Of a stretch of DNA of 64,000 bases, positions 1-40,524 are shown piece after piece (the first letter of the stretch is position 1; every line of letters starts with the position of its first letter). Below the pieces are notes generated by a model. That model ran no database searches and had not been told where the DNA came from. It saw only the letters and a list, made by a program, of their open reading frames with translations. This DNA comes from Bolinopsis microptera (Eukaryota; Ctenophora; Tentaculata; Lobata; Bolinopsidae), in assembly GCF_026151205.1 (NCBI RefSeq), contig NC_087084.1, positions 2,451,345 to 2,515,344 on the forward strand, written 5' to 3'. A program made the translations under genes and the position numbers.

Positions 1-1600
1 TGGAGCAACTCGTAGCTCCTTGAGCTGCGAAATGGCCTGCTGGACAGGTCACTGCTCCATCTAAGGTAGTTATAATGTAAGGTCATGTCGATCATATTTA
101 TAAATGAAAGGTATGTCATGTGTTTTACAATAAATAACATTACATGCCTTCTGTTCATAGTTGGTCCGTACGTACGTAAAAACAGCAGGGTACTCAAGGT
201 ACGACAAATTTGATTTAAGGTACGTAAAGCTTTAAAATTGTTTCACACGCACCAATTTTTTATTTGTCTACGGCTGAAGACAGTGAATCTGAGAATGATA
301 TGTCTGCATTGATTCCGCTTAATGTCTTTAACTTTATCTTGATGATAAATTGTACAATTTAAACTTTTTAAAGGTGTTTAAATCGTGTGAAAATAGCGTC
401 GAAAGTTGCGAAAGTACTTTAGGGTACTCTCGGGGTACTCTTGAGTACGGACTAACTATGCTTCTGTTAAGATATTAAGATGATAATATTAACAGTCTAA
501 ATAAGACCTTGAAAAGACTCACTTCTTCAGACTCAGGATAACAAGGTTACTACTTAGTAACTTAGGAACTAGTTAATTATACCTAGTAACTCAGTAACTC
601 ACCTTCTTCAGACTCAGGATAACTAGGTTACTACTTAGTAACTTAGTAACTAGTTAATTACCTAGTAACTTAGTAACTCACCTTCTTCAGACTCAGGATA
701 ACATTCATCTAGAGAAGCGGCACCGAGCCCCGCAGTGGTTTCACCTTCAGGACATGACGTACAGAACATGGCCCGACTTTCTGAGTAAGCCCCTTTAGCG
801 CACTTAGCGCATACTTCATCTCCAGCTGCGTTTCCAGAATAGTAAGTCCCCGGCGGGCAATCTAACAGGGATAGCACTTTATCAGATTATGTTAAACAGA
901 ATTATAGTGATTCGATTTGATCGGGTACTCCCAGTTTCAAATTCACTTGGAGATATTTTGAGATTTATTAGCTACCGCAAAGACACAAATAAAGTGTAAT
1001 AGTGATCAGTTATAGCGTAACGAAGGGCCCTGCCGACCCCGCGGCTGTGGGGGGGGGGGGGGGGGGGCGGCTCCATCTTAGGGGGGGGGGGGGGGGGGGG
1101 GGGCGCGGCCAAATCGTCGGACAATTTGAAAAAAACTTGACTAAGGTACTAGCAAAACTGCGCGTTTTGCTCTAGAAACGCACTTTTTTAGAGATTTTAC
1201 CGGCGTAAAATCTTTAAAAAATTTGTTTCAATTGGGGCGCCCAAAGGGGAGGGGGTGCCAACAGAGAAACGCTTTTTCAGCGGAAGAGGGGGGGGGGGGG
1301 GGGGGGTGCGGGGCCCGGGGGGCAACAGGCAACGTTACACCACTGATACTCTGATAGTGATCGAGGAGGATTAATTACTAATTATCAAAAACAGCTGGTA
1401 AATAATAATTGCGTCTTACCCGGATCACAAGACATTTGATCATCACTCGTTACCCAGCCATCAGTACAGTCATAACATATGTGATCGCCGCTAAAGGAAT
1501 CTGGAACTCGGAATATTGATTCAATATTATAATATGTTGTTGAATAATTCATTATAAACACAATTCTTTGTACTCTTTTGTTATTGTAGTTTACAAAATT
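1..1600 (-). CDS. Cysteine-rich (ephrin-receptor-like repeat) protein, 3 internal exons, partial
   Basis: Three minus-strand exons join in phase: 1600-1420, 861-682 and 60-1, the last running off the window. The first contains a 'CYDCTDGW' stretch, the second opens with 'CPPGTYYSGN' and has regularly spaced CxxC and CxxCP pairs, and the third has 'TCPAGHFAAQGATSC'. This is the pattern of ephrin-receptor-like / GCC2-GCC3 cysteine-rich repeats of secreted or receptor ectodomains. Both introns are phase 1, typical of shuffled extracellular modules. Acceptors (ttttcag, ctgttag, ccttag) and donors (gtaaga, gtgagt) are good. Exon 1600-1420 starts in phase 0 and has an N-terminal part without cysteines that I do not recognise. 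A 39-nt piece near 1739-1777 with an acceptor and donor could be the preceding exon, but this is weak. Start and end of the gene are not visible, so localisation and ligand are unknown. Confidence 0.75.
515..690 (-). repeat. Tandem triplication of an exon end plus its splice donor
   Basis: On the minus strand the last 20 or so bases of the 861-682 exon and the first roughly 50 bases of the following intron occur three times, with a unit of about 80 bp. The first two copies carry GAAGAAG|GTGAGTTACT. The third, near 515-545, reads GAAGAA|GTGAGTC after loss of one G. All three are usable 5' splice sites by consensus. Confidence 0.85.
1007..1353. mobile_element. hAT-type non-autonomous element (poly-G rich MITE)
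   Basis: The element is flanked by the same 8-bp direct repeat, atagtgat, at 999-1006 and 1354-1361. It starts CAGTTATAGCGTAACG and ends with the inverse of a CAG...TGGTGTAACG terminus; the right end carries a small internal duplication. Three long G runs fill much of the interior. The internal block with 'gattttaccggcg' and the near-terminal 'ggcaacaggcaacgt' are shared with the element at 61899-62118. An 8-bp target duplication with CAG/CTG termini fits the hAT superfamily. No transposase coding is present. Confidence 0.75.
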
Positions 1601-1861
1601 CTGAAAATAACATAAACGAAGTCCTGAAGGATATGATCATTTGATAGAGATTCAAAGCGATCGATTGTAATTCCGTTAGACTTGAGATCTGAATGATTCG
1701 AATCTTCAAACTTAAATAAAATTGTATATTTCTTACCCACAAAAACAGCTTGATGCTTCGGGCAATCTGTCCAAGCTGAAAGAAAACTGTTACCATTTTG
1801 TTTCCTGACAAACTTTATTGTACAATTAATACTCAGAGATTTACAAAATAGAATATTCACA

Positions 1862-4800
1862 CCTAATATTACCCTACCTTATATTGGGTCAGACATTACC
1901 ATGGCAATTTGACTTTAAATCGTTTAATCCGTTTTTCAAAAATATCTAAAACCTATAATAATAAAACCTATAATAATAATAATGCTTCGTAACCTGATGC
2001 TGTTTCTGTAAGATGGGCGATCAGGATAACGACCACTGCACGGCTCAGCATGATCATAGAGCTGTAAACAGTTATAAAGTGATGTTTCTATAATAATATT
2101 ATTAACTGCCTTTTCCCGTTTTCTGACAAAAGTGCTTAAAGACGACTTAAAAATGCAAGGTTTTGAAGCATAATATGTTTGACACATTTATAACAAACTT
2201 TGGCATTTTAAGCTGTTTCAAAAGGGGGTTTGAGGGAGCCAGCCTTTAAGCACATCTGTCAGAAAACGGCAGCATTTTAGGATGCATCAACAATATACTA
2301 ACAGTCACATTTGATAAGATAAATTTGCTGTTAGCTGCATATAGGTATAACTAATATCAATTATATTTCTAATGATGATTGTGCGTACTACGATCCATAA
2401 AATTTGTGGATAATTTGTGGATAAAAAATGAAAAGTATTCAGCAACATTGGATAGACACACTTGAAGACTAAAATAATGGTTATAGGATAATATTTTAAA
2501 GTAACGAAAAATATCATGCAAATCTCCTCCTAACATTCGATTCAAACACCTAATTAATTAAATACCTGGTTACTAGTTTGTCAATTCCGTAAATAAGCAA
2601 AACATTACCGTGTAGACAGGCTTTTAATTGACAAAAAGGAATTCGAAAAGAGCTTTCCAATATTCTGGCCAGTTGTCTAAAAATAACATTTGGAACATAC
2701 CCGCAAAAGAATTGTTTTACATGACACAGTCTGTATGTAAATAAAAATCTATTTTCGTTCGTCTTTACACACGTTTTATAAGGGCCGGGCTTGACTGTAT
2801 GTATATTGGATTCCAAAAGTGAATATTTCAATAGCTTAACTAAGTTACGCTGTAAAGTATACTTAACTGCCAACGTACCACACAAGCTGAAGTTCCTATA
2901 GTTCATGGTAACATTGTACTAGGTCACATCCATATTTGTCGCAAAAGAGAACCGCTTGAAGTTCTGATCTGTAGTCATCGAATTAAGTGTGCAGTGTCTG
3001 GACTCAGCTTACAAGGTTGATTTAATCACTAGAGAAAATCTTAAATAGCGCAGAGGAGAGTGAGCAAGAATAAGTCAATTACAATTTGACACGACATTGA
3101 AAAAGATGGAGCTGAAAGCACCCGGATTTATTTTAACTGTAATAATTCGTTTTTTGCAAGATAATCATATTGAATAAATTGCCAAAAATGTTCCGGCTAT
3201 ACCTTCGTATATAGGTTATAACACGTACAGAAAACGAAGGTAACAAAACTTTGGGGTGCATAAATTTTACCGCGAGATATTTGAGCATGGAATTTGTGGC
3301 CAATTTTGTATTTCTTGATACTGCAGTCAAAAGGCCATAAAAGCATTCGACATAAAAAAATTGTTCTTTGATATATATCTCTAACAGTTTTTACAGAATT
3401 TCGTGTTAAACTTTTTCCGTGAAAATCGTGAGAGATATACCACTGAAAATGTAAAGTTGATGTCATATTATGTATGAATGTATAACTTTTTTTTAACTTC
3501 AAAAAACTATATAATATATCGAATTGTTTTATGTGTAGTAGGATAGCTGTGTTGATTACTGCAAGATAAATTGTAAATGATAGGTATGCACTAAAATTCA
3601 AGTGAAGAATGAGTCTAGCGAACTCGATCCACATGTTAGTCAGGCAGTGGCTCACACTCTGAAGTCTGATGACATCTCTCTTTTGGAGATTTTCGGACTC
3701 ACTGACTACCTATAGTTGAGTGTGTACCACAACATATAGTGTACCACAACCTAGCTGCCTAAACGTTCGGACCCCCCGTCCTATGTGGCAAGCCTGCTCA
3801 CTGAACAAAACAAAGAAAAGAAAGCAAATCACTATGTACCCAACATTTATCAATTATCAATAAATATAATAGACATGGCACGAAAACGTTTACAATTCAG
3901 ACAGACCCCGCGGATCTAACTCAAGACATCACTGAGTGCCCCCAGTTTTCCCATGACAACGGAATACAATTCAACTTGTTTTGATAATAATAAAGTTTAT
4001 TTTATAACCCGGGTCATCCCGCTAATTCTCACTCAAAAACCCGGACAAATCATATAAATCTTGAGGCCAAATTGTCTAATGTCTAATATCTTCCTACGGT
4101 GTGATACCCATACTATGAATATTTTATTATATTATTATATTATATATTATAAAGAACGGTTTGACTGTAGAATATGATTCTTTTTCATTTCTGTAGAATT
4201 TCCAACTGGGCAGAGGATCGAATCATTGTATTTCCATTCTAATTATAGACCTACGTATTCATGAACTGCAACTTCTCGGCGCCTTTACTATCAGACAAAT
4301 CCTTTTCATTGATGTAAAAATTAATCGGACTGCATGTACTTTTTCCTGGACCTATTCAAAATTACTATTGAGAAATAGAAGGTTCGTCTGCAATATGTGT
4401 AACGAAGATATATAGTATATATAGATCGAAACAGCTATTTTCTAAAGAGTGTCTGTTTCATATCCGGCCTAAAAATAATATACGGATAAATTTTAGCGTA
4501 ATTTGATCACAAATTATGATTGTAACAATTTTTACTTATTCATATTGTATGATCATGTTTTTATCGAGACATATTTCTAAGAAACAATTAAGAATTCATT
4601 ATTAAATTAGACTTAATTATAATACCTCATTATCATCATAATTTGCAAAATGATCACACAAATCCTAATGTGCGAGCGAGAAAGTGTTTGAGATCATCAT
4701 AAGATTTTAAAATAACATCCTGCAATAACTGGAGCCACTGTAACTAGCGTGTACCAGGTACCTGTTAAACGATGAATATTTTGAATACATTGCTAAACAA

Positions 4801-11472: not shown

Positions 11473-13617
11473 ATGATGATGAAGAACAGATTTGTATTCA
11501 TTTTCTTGGGATGTCTCCTTGTAGTCCATGCCAAGGGCTACACAGGTAAATAAGATAACTTATAGGTTTCTTTATCGAAATTAATTAGCTAAATAATGAA
11601 TATATAAAAAATGTGTATTCTCTTCGAATTGGAAAACATGAATTAAATTCTTGGAACTTTTAAAGGGAAAGCCTCGTTTAATGAATGTTTTATTATTTAA
11701 ATCCACATTAATTATGAAGGAATGGACTCGAAGATGTGACCTTACAATGATAGTAAAAATTAATGACTTCATATATTTGTATAATTAATCCATTTTAATC
11801 GATTACCTCTATTATATTCGTTATTTTAGAGACGAAGATAACGTGTGCTGACAAACTATGGGCTATCTCCCACATGGTCAATAACGAAGAAAATCTCGAC
11901 TATTCCTTGAATGCTGGCGCTAATGGCTTGGAAATGGATCTGACATTTGACGTAACCGGTACCCCGGCAGATTTCTACCATGATTGGCTTTGTGACTGCA
12001 AATGCTCTAGCTCAGCTGAGGTCTGCAAGTTTGATGTGTGTGAGAATGCTCGTCCGTCCAAAGAAGTCCTGGGGTATTTCATGTCCCACAAAAAGATGGG
12101 ACAAGTTGCCATGTTGTATATTGACAGCAAGGTGGACGAAGTCCCGGATAGTTTAATAGAACAAGCAGGAGTTAACATGGTTACCATGCTGGAGGAAGTT
12201 GTTCTAACTCAGGGTTATAAAGGAATTGTACTTATTGGGGCAGCTAACGAGGATTATTTGAAGTCAGTGGCCGCAACGGCGAGCAAATCACCTTTCAAAG
12301 ACCAGCTCTTCATCGGTTATGACTGGCATACAGACTTTAAAGACGGATTGGAGTTTCTAGCCGACTTGAAGTACCCCAATAAAATAGCCTCGACGGGTAT
12401 TTTCAGATGCCTGAAATGGTTGATTGGCTACGAAGATGAAGCTGTACTGGGACGAGTCAATAAAGCCCGAGGAGTGATCAGCGACATGATCATCTGGACA
12501 TTGGACAAAACTGGAGAATACGAGAAATACTACAGCTACGGAGCCAGAGGTCTCATTTCCAACAACATAAAACAACTAGTGGACTGGGCTAAAAGAAAGG
12601 GTCACGAGCTGTACACTACAGGTATTTCTTTGTTCGTTATGGAGTTTTTAAATTTTATAATAACTAGCAGGAACCCGTGTAACCCTAAAATGGTGTCAAG
12701 ACTAAAACAATATTACTTATTTAATTCGCGTTTTTGACACCACTTGGGGTACCAAATTTTGGGCCCTAAAACTCCTATTTCTTGGCCAATTTTTTATTTT
12801 TTCATGCTGATTTGGAGGCCATTAAAGCATTTGACCCAGTCAAAAAAGTTTCAGTTGTATATCTTTTACAGTTTTTTGCAGAATTTCGCGTTAAAGTTGA
12901 TGCCGTGGTGTCAGTAAAATGGCACGGATAAATAAATATATATATTAAACTTTAAAACTTGAAATTACCAAGGAGAACACTAACGAACTCGTTTTGGCTA
13001 TACATCAATTCAATATCGTCTCGCTTTATATATAGTAAGATGCTTTTTAACTTTTGGGTAGTATTACTTTTTCTGTTGGGTCAGAAATAACCATTGTAAT
13101 TTGACTTTTGGATCGTTAAATCGTTAATTATTATAATCGTTTGAGCTACAGAGGATACCATCTGCGGAGCTACTGCTGGACGAGAGAATTTAGTTACAGA
13201 TATTGGGGACTGTGGTTGCGAGAAGCAGAGACATGGCTGTAGGATAGACGAGCTGGGATCAGTAGCAGGATCTGCTTGCAGGTAACAAATTAAGATTTTT
13301 ACCTGTTAAAAATTGATGAAAAAAATGGGCGTGGCATGGGGGAAGGGTTCCGGTAGGAGTTGAAGCTTCAACATTTTTTTGGTTGTCATTTGGCCTACGG
13401 AACAACAGATAAGCCTATTACCGCAATTATTGGATAATATTTTTGTTTTATGAACCGGGCTAATTGCAGGTGTTCTAAGCAGTGGTTCTTTGGGTTTGTA
13501 GGGTGTAAGGGAGATGTGGTAGGGTGTGAGGACGTGGGGAGTGCAAAGTGTTTGGAGCCTGATCGGAGTAAGTTGAGCTGTAGGCAGGGAGCTGGAAACT
13601 GTGATGGATATTGGTAA
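11473..13617 (+). CDS. Secreted sphingomyelinase D / phospholipase D-family enzyme (SicTox-like)
   Basis: Four exons, 11473-11545, 11830-12621, 13152-13281 and 13470-13617, join in phase (1, 1, 2) to a 380-residue protein. The start (three ATGs in a row) is followed by a hydrophobic signal peptide. The family active site is visible: His in 'SHMVN', Glu and Asp in 'LEMDL', the second His in 'YHDW', Asp and Lys in 'IDSK', and Trp in 'IWTLDK'. The cysteine-rich loop after the second His is also present. These match the GDPD-like TIM-barrel fold of spider and cnidarian sphingomyelinase D-type enzymes, which cleave the choline head group from sphingomyelin or lysolipids. Exons 3-4 add about 90 residues with some eleven cysteines, a tail I do not recognise. 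The gene appears intact. Whether it is a venom component or acts in ordinary lipid metabolism cannot be told from sequence. Confidence 0.88.
12740..12905 (+). repeat. Dispersed repeat inside SMase D-like intron 2
   Basis: This stretch ('ggccattaaagcatttgac', 'gcagaatttcgcgttaaa') resembles 3240-3430 in the same orientation. The downstream block at 13075-13130 resembles 1865-1930. Confidence 0.55.
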
Positions 13618-18407: not shown

Positions 18408-21400
18408 ATGTTGCCAGTGTTAACACTCTGTCTGCTCCTCGGTTCTGTGCTCTGCGATGAAGGTAATTCGATCATAAATAATTTATCTCATGTTTCGTTT
18501 ATACCACCGCAGTATTACATACCAATAATTGTGTCGGACAGAGGCGTTACGGCCAAAACATACCACGACTGTGTTGCTAAGAGACTTAAAATAACAAAAC
18601 CCTACCGGTTAAAGTTAATTCACTACTGTGCGATTTTTTACTCACGATCAAACTTTATCAGGAACGGTCCTTGTGTTAGGAGGACAAGGATTAGCAGGAT
18701 CAGCAACACTCACCGCTCTTCTGGACGCAGAATTCCAAGGTACGATTTTATTATCTCCCCTCTCCCCTCTCCCCTCTTCCATCTCCTTCTCACCATCCCT
18801 GATCTCCATCTCCCTACCTCTGACCTATACCTCCTTCTCACTCCCTCTCCTCCCTCCCTCTCCCCACCTCTTCCCTCTACCTCCCTCTCCATTTCCTCTC
18901 CCCTCTACCTCCCTCTCCCCACCTCTCCCCACCTCTTCCCTCTACCTCCCTCTCCATTTCCTCTCCCCTCTCCCCTACTCTTCCCTCTACCTCCCTCTCC
19001 CCACCTCTTCCCTCTACCTCCCTCTCCCCACCTCTTCCCTCTACCTCCCTCTCCATTTCCTCTCCCCTCTCCCTCCCTCTCCCCACCTCTTCCCTCTACC
19101 TCCCTCTCCATTTCCTCTCCCCTCTCCCTCCCTCTCCCCACCTCTTCCCTCTACCTCCCTCTCCATTTTCTCTCCCCTCTCCCTCCCTCTCACCACCTCT
19201 TCCCTCTCCCTCCCTCTCCATTTCCTCTCCCCTCTCCCTCCCTCTCCCCACCTCTTCCCTCTACCTCCCTCTCCATTTTCTCTCCCCTCTCCCTCCCTCT
19301 CCATTTCCTCTCCCCTCTCCCTCCCTCTCCCAACCTCTTTCATCTCCCTCCCTCTCCCCACCTCTTCCCTCTACCTCCCTCTCCATTTCCTCTCCCCTCT
19401 CCCTCCCTCTCCCCACCTCTTCCCTCTACCTCCCTCTCCATTTCCTCTCCCCTCTACCTCCCTCTCCCCACCTCTTCTTTCTACCTCCCTCTCCCCACCT
19501 CTCCCCTCTACCTCCCTCTCCCCACCTCTTCCCTCTACCTCCCTCTCCCCACCTCTTCCCTCTACCTCCCTCTCCATTTCCTCTCCCCTCTACCTCCCTC
19601 TCCCCACCTCTTCTTTCTACCTCCCTCTCCATTTCCTTTTTGAACTAAACTATATTTCCTTACAGTTAGTGCCCTAAATGATGACAATCCCCGTTACGAC
19701 TACCATGAACTGTTTGAAGATAAGATCGAACGTGTTGTCTGCAACCGTGCTTCCGGTTTGGACGGCTGTTTTGAGCTTCAGAACTTTATTAACGGTGAGT
19801 CAAGTTTTAGGTTGCATTTGAATTTAAGTTTTTAAAGTTTGCCTCTTAATTTTAACAAATTTTTGTATTATTGAATTGATTAGAAATAAGGATATTGAAT
19901 ATTTATGCATGATTATAAGTTAGAACTATAAAGCTCAGTTGTTCAAGTTAACCATAGTTTTTTAAGTTTTACCCACCACTGATCACCAGGCAACAGCAAA
20001 GTGAAAGCGATCGTAGATTTCACGTCTAGTAAGAAAGATTTGATGGAAGAAGCAGTAAGAGTACTTGCTCCTCTTAATCCTGATGTCTACATATTCGTCG
20101 GTGCCGCTGCTGTATATGATGTCAGCGACAATCCTAAACATGTAAGTGTTGTTTTTATTGGCCACCCACATCTCCCTTGAAATATGGGTGAACTACAGCG
20201 TAATCTTCCTAAGACCATAATATGGCTGAGAGTGAGAGCACCGAGTGCAAGAGAAATTGAGTTAATTTTATCTTCTACTCGCCTATTTCTTTAAGTTTAT
20301 GAATTACGCTATGATTTTAGTAATTTGCTCATTTAAATTACTTCAGCCTCTGAAAGAAAGTGACGCAGTAAGACCAGAAGACCCGCTCCTGAAAGAAACT
20401 TACAGTGAACACAACGTCTTTGGACACAACATGTAGGTTATTTTGTTCATTATTATTACTAATACAACTACAAGTAAAAACAAATCTTATTTGTGAAGTA
20501 AATTAAACAGTTCAGCAATGAAACTATTCATTCCTTTAAATAATTCGTTTATTAAAAACTTGTGGACAGAAAATTGTAAACAGAAAATTAAGTACCTGAG
20601 GGTTATGTAATTTGTAGATTTCAAATTTTTAATCAAGAAAAAAATGTTTGATAATAAATATAATCTGTCCAATCCTTTTGCTCGTTATTGGTTATGAACA
20701 TTTTTGTTTGTATTCATTTTTATTATCAGGATTTTAAGAGAATGAGATCCAGGAGGCATTTTTTTTTAAAATTTTAAAAATCCAGGAGGCATTTTTATCC
20801 CCATAAAATATTTCTGATCATTGCAGGCTTGGTTCAGAAGAGGCTCTGATAGCTAGTGGACTACCCTACGTGATACTGAGATGCGGGGATCTGATTGGAC
20901 CACGTGACACCACTCTCAGATGGTGGCAGTACCAGGTAATACATCATCAGCTATTATTCTTCAGCATTCTATTACACTGAACGTACTGTATGAAAAGCAA
21001 ATACATCTCCTGTGCTACTATGGTGCTATTAATAGTTTTTGTTCAGTTATTAACGGTTTTTGTTCAGGTTTTTGTTCAGGTTTTTGTTCAGGTTTTTGTT
21101 CAGGTTTTTGTCCAGGTTTTTGTCCAGGTTTTTGTCCAGGTATTAATAGTTCTTGTTCAGGTATGGATAGTTCTTGTTCAGGTATTAATAGTTCTTGTTC
21201 AGGTATTAATAGTTCTTGTTCAGGTATTAATAGTTCTTGTTCAGGTATTAATAGTTCTTGTTCAGGTATTAATAGTTCTTGTTCAGGTATTAATAGTTTT
21301 TGTCCAGGTATTAATAGTTCTTGTTCAGGTATGGAGTGAGCATTTCGATCTGATCGGAGCTGGATTCCCAGTTCCAGGAGAGTACGAGCACCTACCTTTC

Positions 21401-23079
21401 TCTCTGACGTACGGTGATGACGTGGGTAAAGCTGTCGTCAGCGTCATCAAAAAAGGGTTCGTGCCTGTTTTGTGCCTATTTTGTGCCTGTTTTGTGCCTA
21501 TTTTGTGCCTGTTTTGTGCCTATTTTGTGCCTATTTTGGGGCTGGTCTATGATTAAGTAGTTAAGAGAGAACCACGTTTGTACCACATAGATTATGTTGA
21601 TTTATCAGCATCACAAAGTTTTTCATGACTTTTAAAATGCAGGGTGATGAATGAGATTTACAATATTGCTATGGAGAAAACCTTCACTCTGCCCCACTAC
21701 CTACTGGAACTGTGTATTTACTTTGGAAATGGAGAGAGCTGTTGGGCCGACTACACTGCTGTTAGTAATTGTTTTAATAACCTTATTTATTTAGATTTTG
21801 ATCTTTATTTAGATCTATTTACCCTATTTAATCATAATGCCTTCGCTGTATATAGGCTCATAGAGGCAATCCAGTTTCTTTTTCTTCAACTTTTCAATTG
21901 AATTCAAAACTTCAAAATAACCCCTTTTGAACATTTCTTTTCATTATAACTGCTCGTCTGATCATGAGGATCTTTTCAACTCTAATAAAATATAACAATC
22001 GCAGACAGTAGAATCATACAGCATGTATCCTAGTAACTCTAATAAAATATAACAATCGCAGACAGTAGAATCATACAGCATGTATCCTAGTAACTCTAAT
22101 AAAATATAACAATCGCAGACAGTAGAATCATACAGCATGTATCCTAGTAACCACATAACAATCGCAGACAGTAGAATCATACAGCATGTATCCTAGTAAC
22201 ATGAGGATCTTTTCAACTCTAATAAAATATAACAATCGCAGACAGTAGAATCATACAGCATGTATCCTAGTAACTCTAATAAAATATAACAATCGCAGAC
22301 AGTAGAATCATACAGCATGTATCCTAGTAACTCTAATAAAATATAACAATTGCAGACAGTAGAATCATACAGCATGTATCCTAGTAACATGAGGATCTTT
22401 TCAACTCTAATAAAATATAACAATCGCAGACAGTAGAATCATACAGCATGTATCCTAGTAACTCTAATAAAATATAACAATCGCAGACAGTAGAATCATA
22501 CAGCATGTATCCTAGTAACTCTAATAAAATATAACAATCGCAGACAGTAGAATCATACAGCATGTATCCTAGTAACCACATAACAATCGCAGACAGTAGA
22601 ATCATACAGCATGTATCCTAGTAACCATATGGGCACACTAGACATTGAACATGCTAAGACAGATCTCGACTTTGAGGCTAGCTCTTGGGAAGACGTACTG
22701 AAGGACACAATCATTTTCTACGAGAGAGCGAGACACAATCATACAAAAGAGCGTGATATGGGTTTGTGGAAAATTTATCTTCACTTACTAAATCTTAATT
22801 TAATATTTACTGAAATCTTAACTTACTAATGCCATTTTTTCATCGAATATCATGAAAATATTCCTGTCAATTTTCTCAATTTTCAATGTGAGCCGGTAAC
22901 CACGTTGTGAAAATCATTTGCCTCTTCCTAAATAAACCGATTATGTTTCAGTGCTATCTCGATTGAACGAAAATGTTGTACCATATCTACGAGTAGAGCC
23001 GTTGAACGAAGCAGTTCTTAAAGCAGAAGAGAAACTTTTGGAGTTACCAAAGCCAGTGTTAAATAGAGTTGAATTATGA
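18408..23079 (+). CDS. Secreted/ER-lumen SDR-like protein, paralogue 1 (catalytic Tyr and Lys missing)
   Basis: Ten exons: 18408-18462, 18662-18739, 19666-19794, 19990-20141, 20347-20432, 20827-20935, 21329-21456, 21643-21760, 22593-22761, 22952-23079. All join in phase to 383 residues. A signal peptide (MLPVLTLCLLLGSVLC) precedes a Rossmann motif 'VLGGQGLAGS', then 'VYIFVGAAAVYDVS', 'GLPYVILRCGDLIGPRD', 'LTYGDDVGKAV' and a C-terminal 'AKTDLDFEASSWEDVLKDTI' helix region. This is the order found in extended/atypical short-chain dehydrogenases (NAD-dependent epimerase family). The active-site YxxxK aligns to FxxxM in 'FGHNMLGSEEAL', so dehydrogenase or epimerase chemistry is doubtful; NAD(P) binding may remain. 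CSP41-like SDRs, which bind RNA, have a similar layout and also lack the catalytic residues. Three introns carry arrays at their splice sites and a fourth is nearly G-free. Function unknown. Confidence 0.85.
18750..19640 (+). repeat. Nearly G-free polypyrimidine minisatellite filling intron 2
   Basis: About 890 bp of C/T-rich units such as 'tctacctccctctcc' alternating with 'ccacctcttccc' and 'atttcctctcccctc'. From about 18835 to the end the sense strand has essentially no G, hence no AG dinucleotide. The paralogue has only a short CT-rich remnant at the same place (25140-25215). Strand asymmetry of this kind can form triplex DNA. Confidence 0.95.
21040..21328 (+). repeat. Acceptor-ladder minisatellite in intron 6 (12- and 21-bp units)
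   Basis: A proximal block of 12-bp units (gtttttgttcag) gives way to 21-bp units that start gtattaatagtt and end cttgttcag. Every unit ends in CAG|GT. I count fifteen such sites before the true exon 7 acceptor at 21328/21329. Both unit lengths are multiples of three and the frame is open into exon 7, reading VFVQ and VLIVLVQ repeats. Confidence 0.95.
21458..21542 (+). repeat. 11-bp tandem array at the intron 7 donor
   Basis: About seven copies of gtgcctgtttt / gtgcctatttt start two to four bases after the exon 7 donor (gg|gttcgt). The frame from exon 7 stays open through the array to a stop at 21553. Confidence 0.9.
21963..22620 (+). repeat. Array of exon 9 acceptor-plus-exon-head copies (57-bp unit, higher-order)
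   Basis: Each 57-bp unit contains branch-like AT-rich sequence, the acceptor 'acaatcgcag', and 33 exonic bases coding TVESYSMYPSN. Ten copies precede the true exon 9 start at 22593; one has attgcag. Units are grouped: 'atgaggatctttt' leaders start blocks at 21965, 22200 and 22389, and two blocks end in a short 'ccacataacaatcgcag' form, the last being the true exon. Using an upstream copy would bring in a stop codon within about 15 codons. Confidence 0.95.
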
Positions 23080-23751: not shown

Positions 23752-26700
23752 ATGTTGTCAGTGTTGATACTTTGGTTATACATCAGTTCTGTGCTGTCGG
23801 ATCCAGGTCCAGGTAATGGCAGTTAATTAAGATAAACTGTTTTGTATACCTTATCGGACCTTATTTGGGGCGGACAGTCCGCTAGCGAACGTTGATATTT
23901 TGTTGACGGTACGTGTTAACTGGACTTAGCCGCTGAAGCCCCCAGTGCTGACGTAATGTCCGACCAAATAAAGTCTGATAAGGTATTACCATTTATAGCC
24001 AAGCATTGCAGTGTCCCCCATGAAAAAAAATTGATTTTCCGAAACATTTATCAACAATTTTCGCGGATCTACACCCCTTGAGAACCAAGCTGGTTTACAA
24101 ATTTTTAAAGATTTCAGTCGCAAATTACCTACACCCATTTAGAAACAATATTGAATATATTCTGCTGCCATGAATTTCGCATATTCTCCTTATACTGAAT
24201 TTTTATCAAGTACTTTGGGGATCATTCACATATTACCGGATATTACGTAAGCTGTAAGTATAGGAGAGAGAGTTTGTACATCGAAAAAGCTTACGGCGCA
24301 CGCCGTAAAATAATATATTTCCTACTATAAGTATACAGGGTATGTATAAAGTGCCTTACGGAAGTACGACTTAAATGGCTAAAATATCTGGCTTACGTAA
24401 CAATTTGTGAATTTGCCCTATAATTGGAGCTCCTTCTCCTGTGCACTAAAAGTGTTCACACCACGTGACACAAACCAACCAATCAGAGCACTGTATTCAC
24501 ACCACGTGACACAAACACTAAAGTCTAACCCACTTTGTTTTAAGGGGCAGTAAAACTATAAGCGGGCTGTGTTGAATTTTTGTATTTTATTTGAAAATTC
24601 AATTAATTATCATATATATAAATCAAGCGTTACATTTCAGCCATGCAAAATTACAATGACATATTTTGATATACTAAATGATAAATGGTACTGCAATATA
24701 AGAAATGGGGACCACCCCATGGCAAAATTATATATATTGGCTTACATTGCTTCCTGTTAATAAAAAACATAATTTAATGTCATTTCTTTTTTCTACTACT
24801 CCTCCAAATTTCCGGAGTTACACCTCTTATGTACCACATTTTAGTGCGGATATAGGTTAAACATTTTCCGGAAAATTTTTGCAGGCTTCTCCATAATTTT
24901 GTCAATACAGCAAAATTCGTAAAAGATTATAGATTGAAAACAATTTCCCACCTGTAAAAGTTTGACTTCTGTGTGATGTCATTATGTGGTCCCGTATAAT
25001 AGTACCCTTAGGTCACTACTCACATTTACAGAGCTAAACTTTATCAGGAACGGTCCTTGTGTTAGGAGGACAAGAATTAGCAGGATCAGCAACACTCACC
25101 GCTCTTCTGGACGCAGAATTCCAAGGTACGATTTTACTATTTTTCCCTCTGATCTCCTCCCTCTGATCCCTCTCCATTTTGACCACCCTCCAATCTCCAT
25201 GTGATCCCTCTGATCCCATCCCTTTTATTTCACAATTTGATTCCTGATCTCCATCCTGATGACCTAAAACCAGATTTTCCTATTTACCGCAGTGAATACC
25301 CTAAACGAAGATAACCCCCACTACGACTATCACGAACTGTTTGAAAATAAGGTCGAGCGGATTGTTTGCTCTCGCTCTTCTGGTTTGGATGGCTGTGTTG
25401 AGCTTCAGAACCTTATAAATAGTGAGTAATTTCTTTAAATGTTAACGTTTTCGCCCTGAATTTGGCAGTTGAACTCCTAATTTAAAAGCAGTTTCTTACT
25501 ATCAAAGTTAAACTGACTATAATTTTTATGCATGAAAATAAATTGAATGTATTTATTGCCTTGAACGTAATTTAAAAGATGTTCTTACTAATGAACTGAA
25601 TATAATATTTATGCATGATTATAAATTAAACTTATTTGACCTGACTAATGAATTAGATTTTTCGCCCTGAACTTAAGTTTAGTTTGAAAGTTAAACTCCT
25701 AATTTAAAAAATGTTCTTACTACTGATTCTGCAGAATTGCCTTGCCTGACATGCGCGCATGTCCCCTCCTTGAAGTTGCAACGTGAGACAACTATTGAAC
25801 TGAATATGATATTTATGCATGATAACAAGTTAAAATTATTGGAAGTTTAGTTACTCAACCGGAGCTATTCAATTTTAAAGATTTTAAATTTGTATAACAA
25901 CCTACCAGGCAACAGTAAAGTGAAAGCGATCGTAGATTTCACGTCCGATAACAAAGAGCTAATGGAAGAAGCAGTAAGAGTACTTGCTCCTCTCAGTCCT
26001 GATGTCTACATATTCGTCAGTACCGCTGCTGTATACGATGTCAGCGATAATCCTCAGGATGTAAGTTTTTGCTTTTTTTTCTAATGCCGATCATCCCGTT
26101 TTCAAATCCTCTTTTTGGTACGTATATATATGATAGATATGGGTGAACCGTGACCGATTGACCGAAACCTAGTAAAAATATTTAGCGGCTTTCCGATTAC
26201 AGCTATTACAATTTTTCCACCGCTGATCGTATTTTCGTTTCAGAAATATTTGACATCTCTTCGATTTTTTTGTTTCATTTTGTATTCACTTTTAGTTTTA
26301 TTCTCTCCTAACAGTAACATTATTCTATGAATACTGCTTTTGGTTTTAATTTTCTAATTCTAACTATTGCAGCCGCTGAAAGAAAGTGACGCAGTAAGAC
26401 CAGAGGACCTGCAACTGCAAGACACTTACAACGAAAAAAACGTGTTCGGACACGACATGTAATACATTTTTGTAAAATTATTAAAGAAAAATTATTAAAA
26501 AAACTATTAATTATTAAACAAATTATCAAAGAAACTTATGAGTTATGGATCCCATTATTAGTTCATTCATATATTTAAAATGAAGTATATATTTGAAATA
26601 TAAATAAATAATAATCCATTCAACATTGTTTCTGATCATTGCAGGCTGGGTTCAGAGGAAGCTCTGATAGCTAGTGGACTACCCTACGTGATACTGAGAT

Positions 26701-29700
26701 GCGGGGATCTGATTGGACCACGTGACACCACTCTCAGATGGTGGCAGTACCAGGTAATAATACATACATACAACGGTCTTTTAGTTTGCGGTTTTAACGC
26801 CTGGTGAAACATAATATATAATATAATAGGCCTATTTGTTAAACTGACTTCTGAGTCGTATGGTTTTGATAATCAAGGATTATCATAATCGACATAATCG
26901 TAGCTGCTTGACTCAGGAGGTTCGCTAAGATTATAAACGCTTAACTACGTTTTGTACAGGTATGGTCGGAGCATTTTGTTTTACTTGATGAAGCATTTCC
27001 AGTTCACGAGGACAAACAACACTTAAAATTCTCAATGACATACGGTGACGATCTTGCTAAAGCTGTCGTTAGTGTTATCAACAAAGGGTTTGTGCTGTTT
27101 TTTACTGTTTCAGGTCAAGTTTATTGGTTTAGCTTTTTAATTACGTAAGTGAGGACAATTTGTAGCAAATAGATTGGTTTATGTTGCTCTTAGTTATGGC
27201 ATCATGAATATTTTCTGGGAACTAATTTGGCACAAGCGGTTATCTTAGTAAGTTAATAATTATCCAGAAGTCGAGTTATGGTCGATATAATATAGGCGAA
27301 AAGGATAATTTATGCTCTTATTGCGAAAAATATGCTTTAGTTTTACGACGACAACTTTTTAAATAAGCAGTAGATAAATATGGCCATTACGAACATTTTG
27401 CACCTATTCGGAAGTCTCTGTGACCTATTTATAACTCACCTATGTTTTCTCTAAATTTGCGAAGCCAAAAATCAGTTTTTCGCTAATAATTTGAAAAGTG
27501 ACTGCTTTAGGTCATATACTCATATACTGCTTCATAAGTTGTAGATAAATATGCTAGCAGCGGCTGTTTCGCACGTATCCAGAAGTTTGTAATATCTTCC
27601 CAACGAAAGTTACGAAAATTGACCTCAAAATACCAACCATTTTAAATTTTTCCAAAAAAAGGAAATACTTTGCGATAGTCCGACCACTTTCAGATCATAT
27701 TCACCGGCAATAATATGACCATAGGGGTTATTTTGCACCCCTATTTAGCTCCAGAGTGCCTTCCTAATGGCAGAAATCAATTTCTTAAGGGGGGGGGGGC
27801 CAATGGATATTTTTTTGTGAAACTTGATTTTGAGATAGCAGTTGACCAACAAACTAAGACCAGTGACCGAACTTTTGAGGGGGTCCCGGACCCCAACCGC
27901 CAAACGGTGCCCGCGGGGCAGCCACGCCCATATTTGGTCCAAATTAGGCCCAATTTAGCCAAATACTCTGAACATGCCCAAAACCCAAATTTTAGGTGCT
28001 CTACTTGTAGCTAGTGGTCTCTTGAAGTCGTATATGAAATTTCATCAAGATTGGACAAAAAATGACTGAGTTATGAGCCAAAAACCATATGCCCATATTT
28101 GGGCATACGCACCAAATTTGGTAGATTTCGTCCCATAAATTGGTCAAATATCAATATTTTTCACTGAAACTTACTTTATATGAAAGGTAAGCCTAAACTA
28201 CATATTCTCTGTAAGTTATAGCTTTATATCTGTTCAAATGTGGATACTAAGGCGAAAAGACCACAAAAAATGAACTAAATTGCCCATATCTTGGTTCGCG
28301 ATATTCGCGGAATTGATTTCATTAAAATTGTAACAACTCGATCAGTTTTCAAAATTTTTCCATGAAATTTTCGGAATCGACTCGAAATCGCATTTCCACC
28401 TTAGTTTGAGAACAGATTTTTGATTAAGGCCTCAAAAAAAATTTGGCGGCCAAATTCTGAATTTCTCCGGGAAAATTTTGGAATTTGGCCGCCAAATTTT
28501 TTTGGAGGCCTAAATCAAAAATCTGTTCTCAAACTAAGGTGGAAATGCAATTTCGAGTCGATTCCGAAAATTTCATGGAAAAATTTTGAAAACTGATCGA
28601 GTTGTTACAATTTTAATGAGATCAATTCCGCGAATATCGCGAACCAAGATATGGGCAATTTAGTTCATTTTTTGTGGTATTTTCGCCTTAGTATCCACAT
28701 TTAAACAGATATAAAGCTATAACTTACAGAGAATATGTAGTTTAGGCTTACCTTTCATATAAAGTAAGTTTCAGTGAAAAATATTGATATTTGACCAATT
28801 TATGGGACGAAATCTACCAAATTTGGTGCGTATGCCCAAATATGGGCATATGGTTTTTGGCTCATAACTCAGTCATTTTTTGTCCAATCTTGATGAAATT
28901 TCATATACGAGTTCAAGAGACCACTAGCTACAAGTAGAGCACCTAAAATTTGGGTTTTGGGCATGTTCAGAGTATTTGGCTAAATTGGGCCTAATTTGGA
29001 CCAAATATGGGCGTGGCTGCCCCGCAGGCACCTTTTGGCGGTTAGGGTCCGGGACCCCCTCAAAAGTTTGGTCACTGGTCCTAGTTTGTTGGTCAACTGC
29101 TATCTCGAAATCAAGTTTCACAAAAAAATATCCATTGGCCCCCCCCCCCCCTTAAGTTTGTTTTTAGACACCTGAAGAAAATTTGCTATACCTAGTTTTC
29201 CCCATCAGATTTACTTTTACAACTCTTTGGGGTGGTTGCTGGGACTATGGGCAATACATTCCTTTACAGAAATTCTTGTGACATATCAATTCCCAAATCC
29301 CAAGTGGTTTTATATTTATGCTTATTGTACTGTTTATAAGCGATACAAAGTTAAGTTTTTTATGACTTTGGTCAGCAAATGTTTTAAGATTTAATGGGTC
29401 CAAGTTACTGCGGACATAGTTCACTATGTGTTTACCGTGTTTGGGTGCCCATCATATTTTACAGATGGGGTGATATTTTGAACGATTCTATTTTATATTC
29501 ATCTATTGCTGTACTCTGTAAAATTTGAAAAGTATTTAATTTCAAAAAAATTGCAGGGTGATGAATGAGGTTTACAATATTGCTATGGAGAAAACCTTCA
29601 CTTTACCCCACGTCCTGCTGGAACTGTGTATCTACTTTGGAAACGGCGACAAATGTTGGGCCGACTACCATTCTGTTAGTAATCGTTTTCAATAACTCCA

Positions 29701-30283
29701 TTTTAACATTTCTTGCAATTCTCAGTGCTCTTCTGGCCCTGTGAATTTTTTCCAGGAAGGTCAACTTTCACTAAGTCTCCTTGCGTCCTAAGTTTCTCTT
29801 CTCTCACATATCATAACAATCGCAGGCAGTTGACTCATACAGCTTATATCCAAACAACCACATGGGAATGCTAGACATTGAACATGCTAAGACAGATCTC
29901 GACTTTGAGGCTAGCTCTTGGGAGGACGTACTGAAGGACACAATCACTTTCTACGAGAGAGCGAGACACAATCATACTAAAGAGCGAGATATGGGTTTGT
30001 GGAAAATTAATCTTACTAAAACCATTTTATATCGAATGTCATGAATTAATGAGTGTATCCATTATCCATGCATAATAATACCTATCAATTTGCTCAATTC
30101 GAGGCTATCACTACGTTGTAAAATATCATGTGCCCTAAATAAACCGATCATTTTTCAGTGCTATCTCGATTGAACGAGAATGTTCTGTCTTACCTACAAT
30201 CGGAGCAATTGATCGCCGCAGTTATGAGACAAGAAGGTGTGGAGATGGAGAATGAGCCAAACATACCTAGTATTGAGTTGTAA
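23752..30283 (+). CDS. Secreted/ER-lumen SDR-like protein, paralogue 2 (catalytic Tyr/Lys missing, Gly motif altered)
   Basis: Ten exons: 23752-23812, 25048-25125, 25293-25421, 25909-26060, 26373-26458, 26645-26753, 26960-27087, 29557-29674, 29826-29994, 30159-30283. All phases and the lengths of exons 2-9 are identical to paralogue 1; the product is 384 residues. It has a signal peptide (MLSVLILWLYISSVLS). Exons 2 and 6 are almost identical at DNA level to paralogue 1, while the last exon has diverged strongly. YxxxK is replaced by FxxxM ('FGHDMLGSEEAL'), as in the other copy. In addition the middle glycine of the Rossmann motif is Glu: 'VLGGQELAGS' against 'VLGGQGLAGS'. Cofactor binding may therefore be weakened. 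The splice-site arrays of paralogue 1 are absent. Intron 7 (27088-29556) holds a 1.37-kb palindrome. The gene looks intact; its function is unknown. Confidence 0.85.
24452..24510 (+). promoter_or_regulatory. Duplicated CACGTG E-box in paralogue 2 intron 1
   Basis: The block 'ttcacaccacgtgacacaaac' less its first base occurs twice, with CCAATCA between them. An intronic or alternative-promoter role is possible, but unproven. Confidence 0.5.
27784..29156. repeat. 1.37-kb near-perfect palindrome in intron 7 of SDR paralogue 2
   Basis: Both ends read cttaag followed by a long G run (left) or preceded by a long C run (right). The arms run inward to 27784-28458 and 28481-29156, about 675 bp each, with only scattered mismatches, and a loop of about 22 nt. 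Innermost arm: aatttggcggccaaattc and its inverse. No coding capacity is conserved; the 60-100 codon open frames are arm sequence. It resembles a foldback element; a target duplication is not obvious. Confidence 0.95.
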
Positions 30284-36100: not shown

Positions 36101-36118
36101 GCTCCATGGTTGTGTTTC

Positions 36119-36670: not shown

Positions 36671-39600
36671 TCAATCATTGAGCAACCTCAAATTATACAA
36701 CCTACAGGCTGCTGGTAATTATCGGGAGGTTAAGTGGTTCGTAACTTTTAATTATAAAACAACAATTTTATCGAATAATTACCGTAAGCATTGCAAAATC
36801 CGTCGCTGACTTTCCTAATGTAACCTCGAGTCATGCAGTTCTCAGCATCCAAATGGCATTGATTATAGTAAGTTTTACCATCGTCAGCGCACACTTCTCT
36901 CTGCTTTGCTGGACAGTCACTGTAATTAAATAAGTTAACACAAGCGTAACATAACTGTAACACAAGTGTAACACAGAATGTGGACGTGAAGTGTAACACA
37001 AGATATTGACGTGACATGTAACACAAGAGATGGAAGTGAAGTGTAACACAAGATATGGACGTGAAGTGTAACACAAGATTTGGACGTGAAGTGTAACACA
37101 AGAAATAGAAGACAAGATATGGACGTGAAGTGTAACACAAGATATGGACGTGAAGTGTAACACAAGAGATGGACGTGACATGTAACACAAGAACTAGAAG
37201 ACATGATATGGAAGTGAAGTGCAACACAAGATATGGACGTGAAGTGTAACACAAGATTTGGACGTGAAGTGTAACACAAGAGATGGACGTGGCATGTAAC
37301 ACAAAAACTAGAAGACAAGATTAGGACGTGAAGTGTAACACAAGATTTGGACGTGAAGTGTAACACAAGATTTGGACGTGAAGTGTAACACAAGATATGG
37401 ACGTGACATGTAACACAAGAACTAGTGTAACACAAGATAATAATATCTGGACGTTACCTGTTACAGACACAGGAGGGTCCCCTCTGGATTGTAACTTTGC
37501 ACACTTGCCCCCAGGGACACCGCACATGACTGCACGCGTTCTCTGTAAAGGTTAAAGTTGTCTAGTGATGCACAATTACTTGGTATTATGGCTTGCAAAA
37601 TATGCAAAATCATCTTGCAAGCCATAAAATCATCTTGCAGCAAGATTATTGCTAAGTAATACCAAACCACGTGACTGGTTAATCAGCAGACAGATTCGGT
37701 AAAAGCTGTGGTCCCTTTGACGCAATCATGATGCTGGCACACCAATGTGAGTCACTGCCAAGAATAAATCATATCCGATATAATTAAATACGATTCGACG
37801 ACATTTATTTAACTACTTGATAAGTTTACAGAGCCAGCATTTCTGTCGTGTTAAATTGTTAAAAGATATTGAGACTGTAATTTTCGCTTACCTTGACAAG
37901 GTCCGTAGTGCACGAATTTAATTTTAAAATCGCCAGATCTCTTGCAGGCAGCCTTGGTTACCTCGCAGAAATGCGAGTGTCTGTAGGTGTTTCCGTCGGA
38001 AGCACACACGTGCTGTGCCCCAAAGTATGAACAGTCCATGTCACATATCATTTCGGGATACATCCTGAAGAGGTCGGAATGTTGGGGGGTTTGTTTGTAT
38101 ATCTCGTTATAGGGCTGAGATCTCTGTATAAAAGTATAGGGCCGAGCGTGAGTTTTTAACATTGTAGTGGTCAGTAGGAAGCGTCACTGTCAAGAGCCGT
38201 TATGCTCCCTTATACTGAACATTACAATGGAGCTTTCATTTAAAAATATCTAAATTTGTTGAAGCAACGCACAATAAGATTTTTGGCTTGTAATGAACTT
38301 TGAGGGTTGTTATTCATCAATAAGTGGCAGAAAATATGGTTTACACAACGAAGGAGTTATCATGTTACCAATTTCTAAATTTTGTGAGAGTCTTAACTTT
38401 TGTACTCCTGTTTAAAGAACGTTAATAGCTCATGCTATGACTACTGCCTGTTACTTCAAAATATTCAAAAGTCACGAAAGATGAAATTCGCTTTCTGCAA
38501 TTCTTCAGAATACTGTAACGGAGTAATGCCACTTTAAAAAGACTGCCGCAAGCATTGCGACAGATCACCGCTAGGCCTAGTAAACTCTGTCAAATTAGAA
38601 AACCTCAGTAATCCGCTAGAAATGTAATATTCGTTGGAGGGTTGGTATTCAGGAGCCTTTCATGAGTCATCATTCAAGCAAAGTCTGACCTTCTATTCAG
38701 AACTTTCTCATTTGCGCACCCAATTTGTCATCAATTTCAGGATACCAATGATTTATGGGCTGACTTTAGATCGCCAAGTTTAGTACGAGGGTTATAGAGG
38801 TGGTAAGTTAAATATTTGCCAAATCTTAGGACGCTTTGAATCCACAGTATTTATGTTGCAATGATCTGGAAACTAACTTTTCAGGGAATTTAAAGTTAAT
38901 AGAACGGAATTGCGATTAAGTGAATTCTTACAGTAACAAATTTCACGAGAGTAGACGTTTTCAAGGATTTATTGGCAAATTGGCTCTGTTAATTTTGGCC
39001 ACCCTCTCTTCAAGTATTTGACTTGAGTAACATTGTTGAATAAATTAATCGTCTTAATGATATTTACTAGACAAATTGATAGATTTTAGAAATTCTAGCC
39101 TATCACCAACTTAGATTTATAAATTGAAAATTTCGCTAAATCGGACTTCCATTAAATTGGAGTATGATTTTTTGATACTGAACGATCGTCGATTAATAAT
39201 TTTATTCATGGTTCAGTAAAATTTCGTAATAGTGGATAAGTAGCCCGGAAAATAACCTGTGATTTTCTATTTGGATGGCAGCCATATTCAAAGTTCATAA
39301 TAAAAATATTTAGTGATAATTAACTCACGAGTAAGATTAGAATTGTTGTCAGTGAGTGAAAGAAGTATTTTTTCGCGTCTAAAAATAGAATTTGTTTTTA
39401 TATTTCTGCAACAGCTTATTTTGGTTCACGTTCAATCATTTTAAATAAAATTGGTCGGGCCGGAGTGGTACGATTAATGATGAATTTTCGACAAAAATAT
39501 GTGGCCGGATTATTTCTTATTCTATTCTGCTTTGGTGGCTAATATTTACATCTTCACCTATCTAAAATTCAAATTAACTATGCCTAGTTTGGTCTTTTGA

Positions 39601-40524
39601 GATCCGTCAAACGAAAATATATTCCTAGAAATTGTAAAAATTAATTAATAATTAGTTGACTCACGGTATGTTGGATGGACATTCCCCTCTTGAAGCTACC
39701 GTGATTTCTTTGGACAGGTGGCAATTACGCATTTTCAACAGGCACTTGTTTAAATAAGTTTCTCCATCACTCCCGCATACCGGGCTTTTCCTGTGATAAT
39801 TGCTCTTTAATTAACTTAATCAAATTTTAATTAGGTAATTAATGCAATGATTAAAGTCTTAACAGGATACGTGTTTAATTGGAGATATGGGAAAGGTGTG
39901 CTGGGAGAGCAGAGGTAATAACAAAGAGCATGTCTTTAAACATTGCACGCAATGGTACTTGTAGTTCTGAACCAAAATAAGCTTTAAAAACTTAGAAGCG
40001 ATTGTCATAAGACGTTCCTTTAACTAACTTAAGTTATTCTAACTTATTTAAGTTATTCTAACTTATTTAAATTGTTCTAACTTATTTAAGTTATTCTAAC
40101 TTATTCAAGTTATTCTGACTTACTTAGTAGGACACGATCTGGGACAGCTGGGGAGACAGGTGACAACATTGTTTTTATAAAAGCACGTGTCTGAGTAGGC
40201 GCATGCTCTTGAACACCACCCTGAAAAAAGTTTATTACTTAATCAAGGAAATATGAATTGATTAGCAAAGGAATTCGTTGATTACCCCATAAAGTATTCA
40301 ACTATAAGCATTTAAATAATAAGGTAAATGAGACAACAATTTACGTACAAGCTCATAAATATGGCTACTGATTAGCTGCAGGTCACAATTATAAAGTAAT
40401 AATATAACTGTCACTCACTATGTGCGAAGTAGTTTTGGTTGATATTATCGATGACAGGCTGGCTTTTAGTGGTAACCAGAAGGGACAGGGTCACTAGCAG
40501 AGAGTTCATGTGTCCGGTAAACAT
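36671..40524 (-). CDS. Follistatin-like secreted protein (FOLN and Kazal modules)
   Basis: Exons in order of transcription: 40524-40419, 40220-40124, 39790-39665, 38064-37892, 37542-37458, 36919-36783, and a probable last exon 36708-36671. Phases agree throughout, giving about 253 residues. The first exon is a signal peptide ('NSLLVTLSLLVTT'). Next come a follistatin-N-like module ('WCSRACAYSDTC'), a Kazal domain ('SPVCGSDGETYLNKC'), a second Kazal domain ('HVCASDGNTYRHSHFC'), a second FOLN module ('ACSHVRCPWGQVC') and a third Kazal domain ('EVCADDGKTYYNQC'). Three Kazal-containing modules in a small secreted protein match follistatin, which binds and blocks activin/BMP-type TGF-beta ligands. 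The usual vertebrate N-terminal domain before FS1 is not seen, and the second module lacks a clear FOLN part. Alternative: a multi-Kazal protease inhibitor. The last exon is the least certain part. Confidence 0.82.
36945..37450 (-). repeat. 25-bp tandem array filling the last-but-one intron of the follistatin-like gene
   Basis: About 20 units of cttgtgttacacttcacgtc plus 'catat' (minus strand) run from immediately after the 37458 donor, which itself reads ctgtaacag|gtaacgtccagatat, to about 25 bases before the 36919 acceptor. The unit resembles the donor-proximal sequence (gttacA..cgtccagatat). Confidence 0.9.
40018..40124 (-). repeat. 20-bp tandem array starting at a splice donor
   Basis: On the minus strand the donor gtaagtcagaataactt is followed directly by about five units of (g)aataagttagaataactta. 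It is in the intron after the first FOLN exon of the follistatin-like gene. Confidence 0.9.

Follow-up and report, generated by a model that had tools for sequence, protein, structure and literature searches.

It is not obvious from DNA sequence why tandem arrays should lie at the exon–intron boundaries of unrelated genes. The window analyzed here, a stretch of 64 kb from the lobate ctenophore Bolinopsis microptera (Ctenophora, Lobata), raises this question. In a sequence-only reading of it, six junctions in three genes were described at which arrays start at, or copy, splice sites. The arrays may be seeded by a process that acts at the boundaries, they may be new introns, or they may be duplications of a repeat-rich genome that are tolerated where they cross a junction. 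The gene models of the window were built by hand and showed zero internal stops on translation. The B. microptera genome searched comprises 264.65 Mb; the species is tabulated at 265 Mb and 13 chromosomes in a Mnemiopsis genome paper (PMC11797021). The following genes and exons were modelled in the window:

456-2051, minus strand: gene A, Ephrin_rec_like; hand model
682..861, minus strand: exon 4 of gene A, Ephrin_rec_like (Pfam PF07699, E 2.1e-6); the exon end is 682
11476-14050: a further gene; hand model
18408..23079, plus strand: gene B1, NAD-dependent epimerase family, 10 exons (Pfam PF01370, E 3.5e-9; 383-aa relative P0013)
23752..30283, plus strand: gene B2, tandem paralogue of B1; hand model
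Minus strand: gene C, Kazal domains (Pfam); NCBI agrin-like P0030
40124..40220, minus strand: exon 2 of gene C, donor at its 3′ end (P0030)
37458..37542, minus strand: exon 5 of gene C, donor at its 3′ end (P0030)

The hand-made B2 protein is identical to the NCBI protein P0016 (LOC134825333 isoform X1, uncharacterized, Bolinopsis microptera). The agrin-like protein P0030 agrees with gene C across the array introns, but it splices onward from the last modelled exon of C. The end of exon 6 of gene C is therefore placed near 36783, not 36748, and the same position was given by a home-made predictor. Gene A has no independent protein and its model comes from hand annotation; its last exon (8 nt) is doubtful.

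All six junction arrays were found at the described places, and their junctions fit the stop-free gene models of the window. Donors are touched or copied in gene A, in intron 7 of B1 and in introns 2 and 5 of gene C, and acceptors in introns 6 and 8 of B1. A seventh array, beyond the six described before, fills intron 2 of B1. The arrays are:

517..703, minus strand: gene A array, 81-bp unit in 2.4 copies, consisting of the last 22 exon bases, the donor and about 59 nt of intron
18754..19630, plus strand: CT-rich array filling intron 2 of B1, from donor +14 to 35 nt before the acceptor
21027..21332, plus strand: acceptor ladder of B1 intron 6, made of units of 12 and 21 bp that all end in TTCAG|G
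21461..21538, plus strand: array of B1 intron 7, 11-bp unit from donor +4
21978..22627, plus strand: array of B1 intron 8, acceptor and about 33 nt of the exon head, 57/49-bp units, 11 copies
36936..37425 (TRF), minus strand: array of C intron 5, 25-bp unit, filling nearly the whole intron
40021..40126, minus strand: array of C intron 2, 19-bp unit from the donor, edge 3 nt before the donor

The gene A array holds three donor copies, the third of which is one base short, and its edge determined by TRF lies 22 nt within exon 4. The ladder in intron 6 of B1 reaches the real acceptor (exon start 21329) with an array edge 4 nt beyond it, and in intron 8 the last of the 11 copies is the real acceptor, with the edge 35 nt beyond (both by TRF). 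The array in intron 5 of gene C starts at donor +32 according to TRF; by eye, likeness to the unit extends to about 37450, beside the donor. In gene A and in intron 8 of B1, the repeat units contain both exon bases and the splice site beside an intact exon, and these arrays are regarded as junction-crossing minisatellites.

The paralogue B2 provides an internal control for B1. The two genes have nine intron positions in common, their exons 2 to 9 are equal in size, and the introns of B2 are free of the arrays of B1. Small arrays of its own were found in B2 by TRF, one of 63 bp from donor +15 in intron 5 and one of 61 bp in intron 7. The lengths of the introns in B1 and B2 are 926 versus 167 (intron 2), 393 versus 206 (intron 6) and 832 versus 151 (intron 8). 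The shared positions and the very different lengths imply that the B1 arrays postdate the duplication, or that B2 lost them after it, and that the change took place inside existing introns. The active intron remodelling that had been suggested for this genome is thus borne out for B1, where existing introns were remodelled and not gained. Intron gain through duplication of AGGT-containing segments, which had also been brought up, was ruled out for this gene, as its nine intron positions are also present in B2, which lacks the B1 arrays.

The copy of the splice site that is used was deduced from related proteins. P0013 (383 aa) differs from B1 in 2 residues and is encoded by a contig of 1561 bases (source jgi/lgn), compared with 4.7 kb for the gene. 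It encodes the B1 protein unbroken through introns 6, 7 and 8, with the joins WQYQ|VWSEH, VIKKG|VMNEI and YTA|TVESYSMYPSNHMG. These three joins require that the last acceptor be used in introns 6 and 8 and the first donor in intron 7. We read the contig as a transcript, a point on which the source label is silent, and judged from the protein it encodes the arrays of B1 are spliced out. The array-derived residues are absent from the B2 protein and from two relatives at 81-86% identity. Introns 2 and 5 of gene C are joined at the exon-proximal donors in the predicted NCBI protein P0030; P0031 from Mnemiopsis can be aligned across the array-intron joins of C. In these genes, B1 and C, the joins seen at the protein level involve one site inside the array and one outside it.

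The reading frames were examined for the remaining copies. Skipping of the first donor leads to a stop after 17 nt in gene A, after 1 nt in intron 2 of gene C and after 1 nt in intron 5 of gene C, and within 1-21 nt in each of the six exon-crossing loci described below. The first stop in intron 7 of B1 is met at 97 nt, past the end of the array, so the inner donor copies of this intron are not barred by stops. A stop is met after each of the nine upstream CGCAG copies tested in intron 8 of B1. Of the 13 upstream TTCAG sites in intron 6, 12 can be read through to exon 7 in an open frame. Among the proteins compared, none derived from an inner copy was found. Most reading frames demand the exon-proximal copy; the proteins of B1 and C bear this out.

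Similar arrays were found elsewhere in the genome. Twenty loci, 13 with CAGGTAAGT arrays and 7 of the 12 with AAGGTGAGT arrays, were fetched, all from the matches listed. A coding-like exon runs into 4-39 copies of the motif in six of the 20 (L036, L038, L042, L046, L049 and L050). The coding score just before the array is at least 2.9 in those six; scores above 3 occur at 10% of random positions, compared with 79% of annotated donors. L051 is a possible seventh locus at a coding-like exon end. Six, perhaps seven, of 20 is close to the approximately 38% of CAGGTAAGT words that lie above background, which is a rough estimate and holds for CAGGTAAGT only. The units of the six loci include from about 4 to 33 exon bases. 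In L049 the last 33 exon bases and GTGAG are present in about 10 copies, the L046 unit combines 23 exon bases with 9 from the intron, CAGGTAAGT (CAG|GTAAGT) recurring there in 39 exact tandem copies, and the units of L042, L049 and L050 are nearly wholly exon-derived. Junction-crossing minisatellites as in gene A are thus present in all six loci, with the exons recognized by coding score and, in L042, also by Pfam (MABP1/WDR62 WD40 family, E 1.7e-5). Seven exon peptides were submitted to Pfam in all, and the six besides L042, including that of L044, gave no match, nor did a PDB search with the L049 exon. Unique sequence follows the array in L036, L038, L042, L049 and L050 and an acceptor-like site was recognized downstream by eye, which indicates that these arrays sit at one end of an intron. 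L044 resembles an acceptor array by eye; for the other loci, no coding exon is evident beside the array or the array starts outside the fetched piece. Units of the CAG|GTAAGT type would permit one site to serve as both donor and acceptor.

Donor words were counted genome-wide, a pair being defined as a word that recurs 12-42 nt on. CAGGTAAGT forms 493 pairs compared with 2 for the backwards word (2462 versus 1212 single occurrences), and AAGGTGAGT forms 210 compared with 43. The anagram GATGACAGT, which is matched in composition and has no splice meaning, forms 258 pairs and its reverse 187. CAGGTAAGTY gave 44 matches in 10 arrays and its control 0. As the pair counts of the six words range over 493, 2, 210, 43, 258 and 187, they are heavy-tailed, and the comparison was limited to approximate numbers of distinct arrays. 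Among the matches listed, there are at least 13 distinct arrays for CAGGTAAGT (reaching C10), at least 12 for AAGGTGAGT (reaching C3) and at least 6 for the anagram (reaching C10). With four arrays from CAGGTAAGTY added to the 13 among its listed pair matches, the number of known CAGGTAAGT arrays is 17 or more. In the random sample described below, 0.79% of same-composition words (bootstrap 95% 0.33-1.35%) start such an array, which corresponds to about 16 arrays expected for CAGGTAAGT. The CAGGTAAGT arrays show no clear excess over the genome background (at least 17 versus about 16), although an excess is possible; in pairs, CAGGTAAGT is far above its backwards word. Strong enrichment of donor words in arrays was considered and dropped in view of the anagram and the same-composition background rate. 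Arrays that hold the donor consensus nevertheless recur across the genome.

A random genome sample of 250 kb (L009-L033) was annotated with a home-made gene finder. In four rounds on the window, this program recovered 28, 26, 24 and 26 of the 31 hand introns among 32 to 37 predictions; the hand introns had been in its training set. The sample yielded 68 introns with both flanking exons scoring >5. Some predicted genes of the sample resemble transposons or fusions, some predicted exons are mostly repeats, and one open frame of the window carries a coding array. In an AP-1/AP-2 beta gene (L029), two of the 14 predicted introns open with donor arrays whose first unit lies no more than 4 nt from the donor, GTGTACCGTACT at donor +4 and GTGGGTTAGA directly at the donor. 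Across the array introns, the AP beta protein follows PDB chain 7r4h without a break after one hand correction, in which one donor and one acceptor of intron 5 were corrected against AP-1 beta (7r4h). One other intron of the sample consists of two 95-bp copies.

Repeat coverage was measured as 10-mers recurring at 8-150 nt in about 50 sample introns of 100-1000 nt. On the donor side it amounts to 0-0.1% in the exon (-90..0), 5.4% at +0..10, 6.3% at +10..25 and 11.6% at +25..50. Mid-intron coverage is 6.0% in the sample and 22% in the window, which is richer in repeats. At the acceptor, coverage is 1.0% at -10..0 and 1.6-6.1% on the exon side. A boundary-specific process, as proposed from the window, is not reflected in these values, the coverage next to the donor being no higher than mid-intron and that on the intron side of the acceptor lower. 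Nor do the splice-donor 9-mers stand clearly apart from the meaningless word of matched composition.

The ends of 35 intron arrays were compared with uniform placement in 20000 simulations. The set includes the window, in which the phenomenon was discovered, together with the 250-kb sample, and mostly exonic arrays were left out. Ten of the 35 arrays have an edge within 15 nt of a donor compared with 3.4 expected if arrays are confined to introns (0/20000 simulations reached 10), and with 4.4 and 4.8 expected if they may slide 20 and 40 nt into exons (p 0.0023 and 0.0066). Within 6 nt of the donor there are 7 edges compared with 1.9, 3.2 and 3.9 for the confined, 20-nt and 40-nt models (p 0.0001, 0.024 and 0.066). 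Among the same 35 arrays, no clear excess was found for acceptor edges (4 versus 3.4-4.7 within 15 nt; 4 versus 1.9-3.8 within 6 nt, p 0.06-0.56) or for junction crossings (6 versus 4.4 and 6.2, crossing being impossible for confined arrays). In the sample alone, 4 of 24 arrays have donor edges versus 1.2-1.9 expected (p 0.001-0.07). One of these four lies at a doubtful A-rich junction and another is the intron of two 95-bp copies. Restriction to introns <1 kb keeps 18 of the 35 arrays; in the sample, 3 of 8 then have donor edges compared with 1.2-1.6 expected (p 0.011-0.093 within 6 nt, 0.064-0.167 within 15 nt). The placement test is small, since the sample is just 250 kb. The excess of array ends is found on the donor side only and depends on the null, so that a donor bias is possible. 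The statement that the six junctions exceed chance is not confirmed in that form: in sequence of which arrays make up about 10% (314 kb examined), the excess is clear against confined arrays and is weaker, and limited to donors, with sliding.

We propose that the arrays probably reflect a repeat-rich genome in which junction-crossing duplications are near-neutral and splicing takes place at the exon-proximal copy. Short-range tandem duplication, by slippage or unequal exchange, would occur at a high rate genome-wide. Frame-breaking products in coding exons would be removed by selection, and those in introns would be neutral. A duplication that crosses a junction would be nearly neutral, because splicing would keep the copy beside the exon body, that is, the first donor or the last acceptor. 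Everything beyond the used copy would become intron and be free to grow to dozens of copies. As introns are short, many arrays would touch or copy a junction. We infer this mechanism of duplication, its neutrality and exon-proximal choice as a general rule. Such tolerance is supported by the number of crossings, about equal to the free-crossing expectation, by the near absence of repeats from the last 90 exon bases before donors in the sample, by the joins of the B1 and C proteins, by the stops met where a first donor is skipped and by B2, which lacks the B1 arrays at the same intron positions. Several observations speak against it: neutrality predicts no asymmetry between donors and acceptors, so the donor-edge excess that survives the sliding null counts against it; the donor pair counts exceed their backwards controls; exons carry arrays too, as seen on the exon side of acceptors; stops do not bar the inner copies of B1 intron 7; and dozens of identical donors would be expected to meet some selection.

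The donor-edge excess would be accounted for by a process acting at splice donors, for example transcription- or splicing-linked slippage or repair at the exon end, that seeds the arrays. The excess is seen in the full set of 35 arrays, in the sample alone and in its introns <1 kb; the two AP-1/AP-2 beta introns, the coverage of 11.6% at +25..50 versus 6.0% mid-intron and the pair counts of the donor words point the same way. We nevertheless consider this process unlikely and give it a lower probability than tolerance, as the coverage at donor +0..25 equals that mid-intron in the random sample, the anagram and its reverse form many pairs in heavy-tailed counts, acceptors show no comparable excess and the window is the discovery set. 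Of the repair or slippage process suggested for the boundaries, slippage-type duplication that remodels introns at junctions is retained, with similar arrays elsewhere; the targeting of boundaries is not supported. A stronger version is doubtful: a donor-biased process of ctenophores would preferentially re-copy in tandem the transcribed segment of exon end and donor, some 20-35 exon bases and 5-20 intron bases, perhaps by transcription-linked repair, and the spliceosome of the phylum would select, without error, the outermost one among dozens of identical donors. Maintenance of the arrays by selection, as redundant donors or acceptors, splicing enhancers or in-frame alternative acceptors, is very unlikely. 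The 12- and 21-nt units of B1 intron 6 with their frame-open acceptors would suit it, but stops follow the upstream acceptors of intron 8 and, in most cases, a skipped first donor, B2 and the two relatives encode the protein without array-derived residues, and inner-copy products did not appear among the proteins compared. That the arrays are new introns, gained when exon segments with AGGT were duplicated in tandem, agrees with the AG|GT boundaries of many units and the nearly all exon-derived units of L042, L049 and L050; it is made very improbable by the intron positions that B1 shares with B2 and by the location of arrays at one intron end in five loci. An artefact of gene prediction or assembly could be suspected in gene A, which lacks an independent protein, and at the sample junctions, which come from a home-made predictor tested on its own training introns. 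It is hardly credible given the agreement of B2 and C with NCBI proteins, of B1 with P0013 and of the AP beta protein with the PDB chain.

The arrays may be compared with known systems. Intronic minisatellites are arrays in introns with high copy turnover; the units described here differ in that the working splice site lies within them, together with exon bases at several loci. The gain of introns through tandem duplication of an AG|GT segment (Rogers 1989 and Hellsten 2011, cited in PMC4974935) likewise involves a tandem AG|GT-bearing segment and duplicated exon sequence inside an intron, whereas here existing introns are lengthened, the exon-proximal site is still used and there are many copies, not one. 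In the potato RdRp gene (PMC4974935), the duplicated segment also spans an intron–exon boundary with its splicing signals, but a single duplication led to a new intron, compared with up to 39 exact-motif copies here and, in B1, an old intron. The fission yeast introns of SPOG_01682 and SOCG_00815 (PMC3629103) are composed of repeat units with proto-splice sites; unlike the present arrays, they are gained introns in two genes. The dual-specific sites of human UBC (PMC10809524) are similar in that AG|GT-bounded units are able to serve as donor or acceptor, and the authors argue there that repeats removable by splicing are less harmful. In UBC, the units encode protein and keep the frame, whereas most units examined here are frame-breaking and intronic. 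In the ctenophore Hormiphora, repeats identified by TRF make up 14 Mb, or 13% of the genome. No report of splice-site ladders in ctenophores was found among the titles listed in searches of the open-licence PMC literature.

The observation made in the window is real and recurrent. Whatever seeds the arrays, the loci are natural experiments in splice-site choice. They also show how introns can grow from their own boundaries, absorbing exon sequence with the protein unchanged. As most frames demand the exon-proximal copy and the B1 and C proteins agree, the rule of choice among identical sites becomes testable in an early-branching animal. L046 offers 39 exact donors after one coding-like exon, and exon 9 of B1 is preceded by 11 near-identical acceptors, the last of which is used.

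Frame is largely preserved in the array of intron 6 of B1, the first of two tandem paralogues of the NAD-dependent epimerase family (array at 21027-21332). Because its units are 12 and 21 nt long, 12 of the 13 upstream TTCAG sites are in frame with exon 7. These sites may provide optional in-frame extensions of this exon. The second paralogue, B2, carries a shorter duplication at a donor:

23803-23814, 6-bp tandem duplication CCAGGT|CCAGGT at the donor of B2 exon 1

Protein comparison shows that at this donor the B2 protein is two residues longer than that of B1, and the B2 protein with the added residues is present as the same sequence in NCBI.

Outside the window, the donor array of L046, a locus picked by splice-donor motif pairs, displays a higher-order period of 160 bp, corresponding to five 32-bp units, which implies that blocks of units were amplified together. 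In L031, a piece of a random genome sample (S31), the predicted 193-nt intron g0.1 consists, from donor to acceptor, of two 95-bp copies.

An open frame with an array and three further repeats are located in the window:

55974-58325, minus strand, 783-aa open frame
27789-29149, inverted repeat with 680-nt arms inside B2 intron 7
48500-50661, inverted repeat whose arms measure 456 nt (100%) and 177 nt (99%)
1015-1347, element with long G-runs

The open frame holds 16 copies of a 15-bp repeat (NVPGA-like), and this array seems to lie within coding sequence. The inverted repeat in B2 intron 7, whose arms are 98% complementary and separated by a 1-nt spacer, is a foldback element. In the repeat at 48500-50661, approximately 0.9-1.25 kb separates the arms. 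The G-run element has at least about 40 related matches genome-wide.

One further gene was modelled by hand:

11476-14050, plus strand, five-exon gene

A Pfam scan of its product gave no match, and the 12 relatives found by protein comparison (34-95% identity) are all labelled only "hypothetical protein". The product may resemble the phospholipase D family, which includes venom enzymes.
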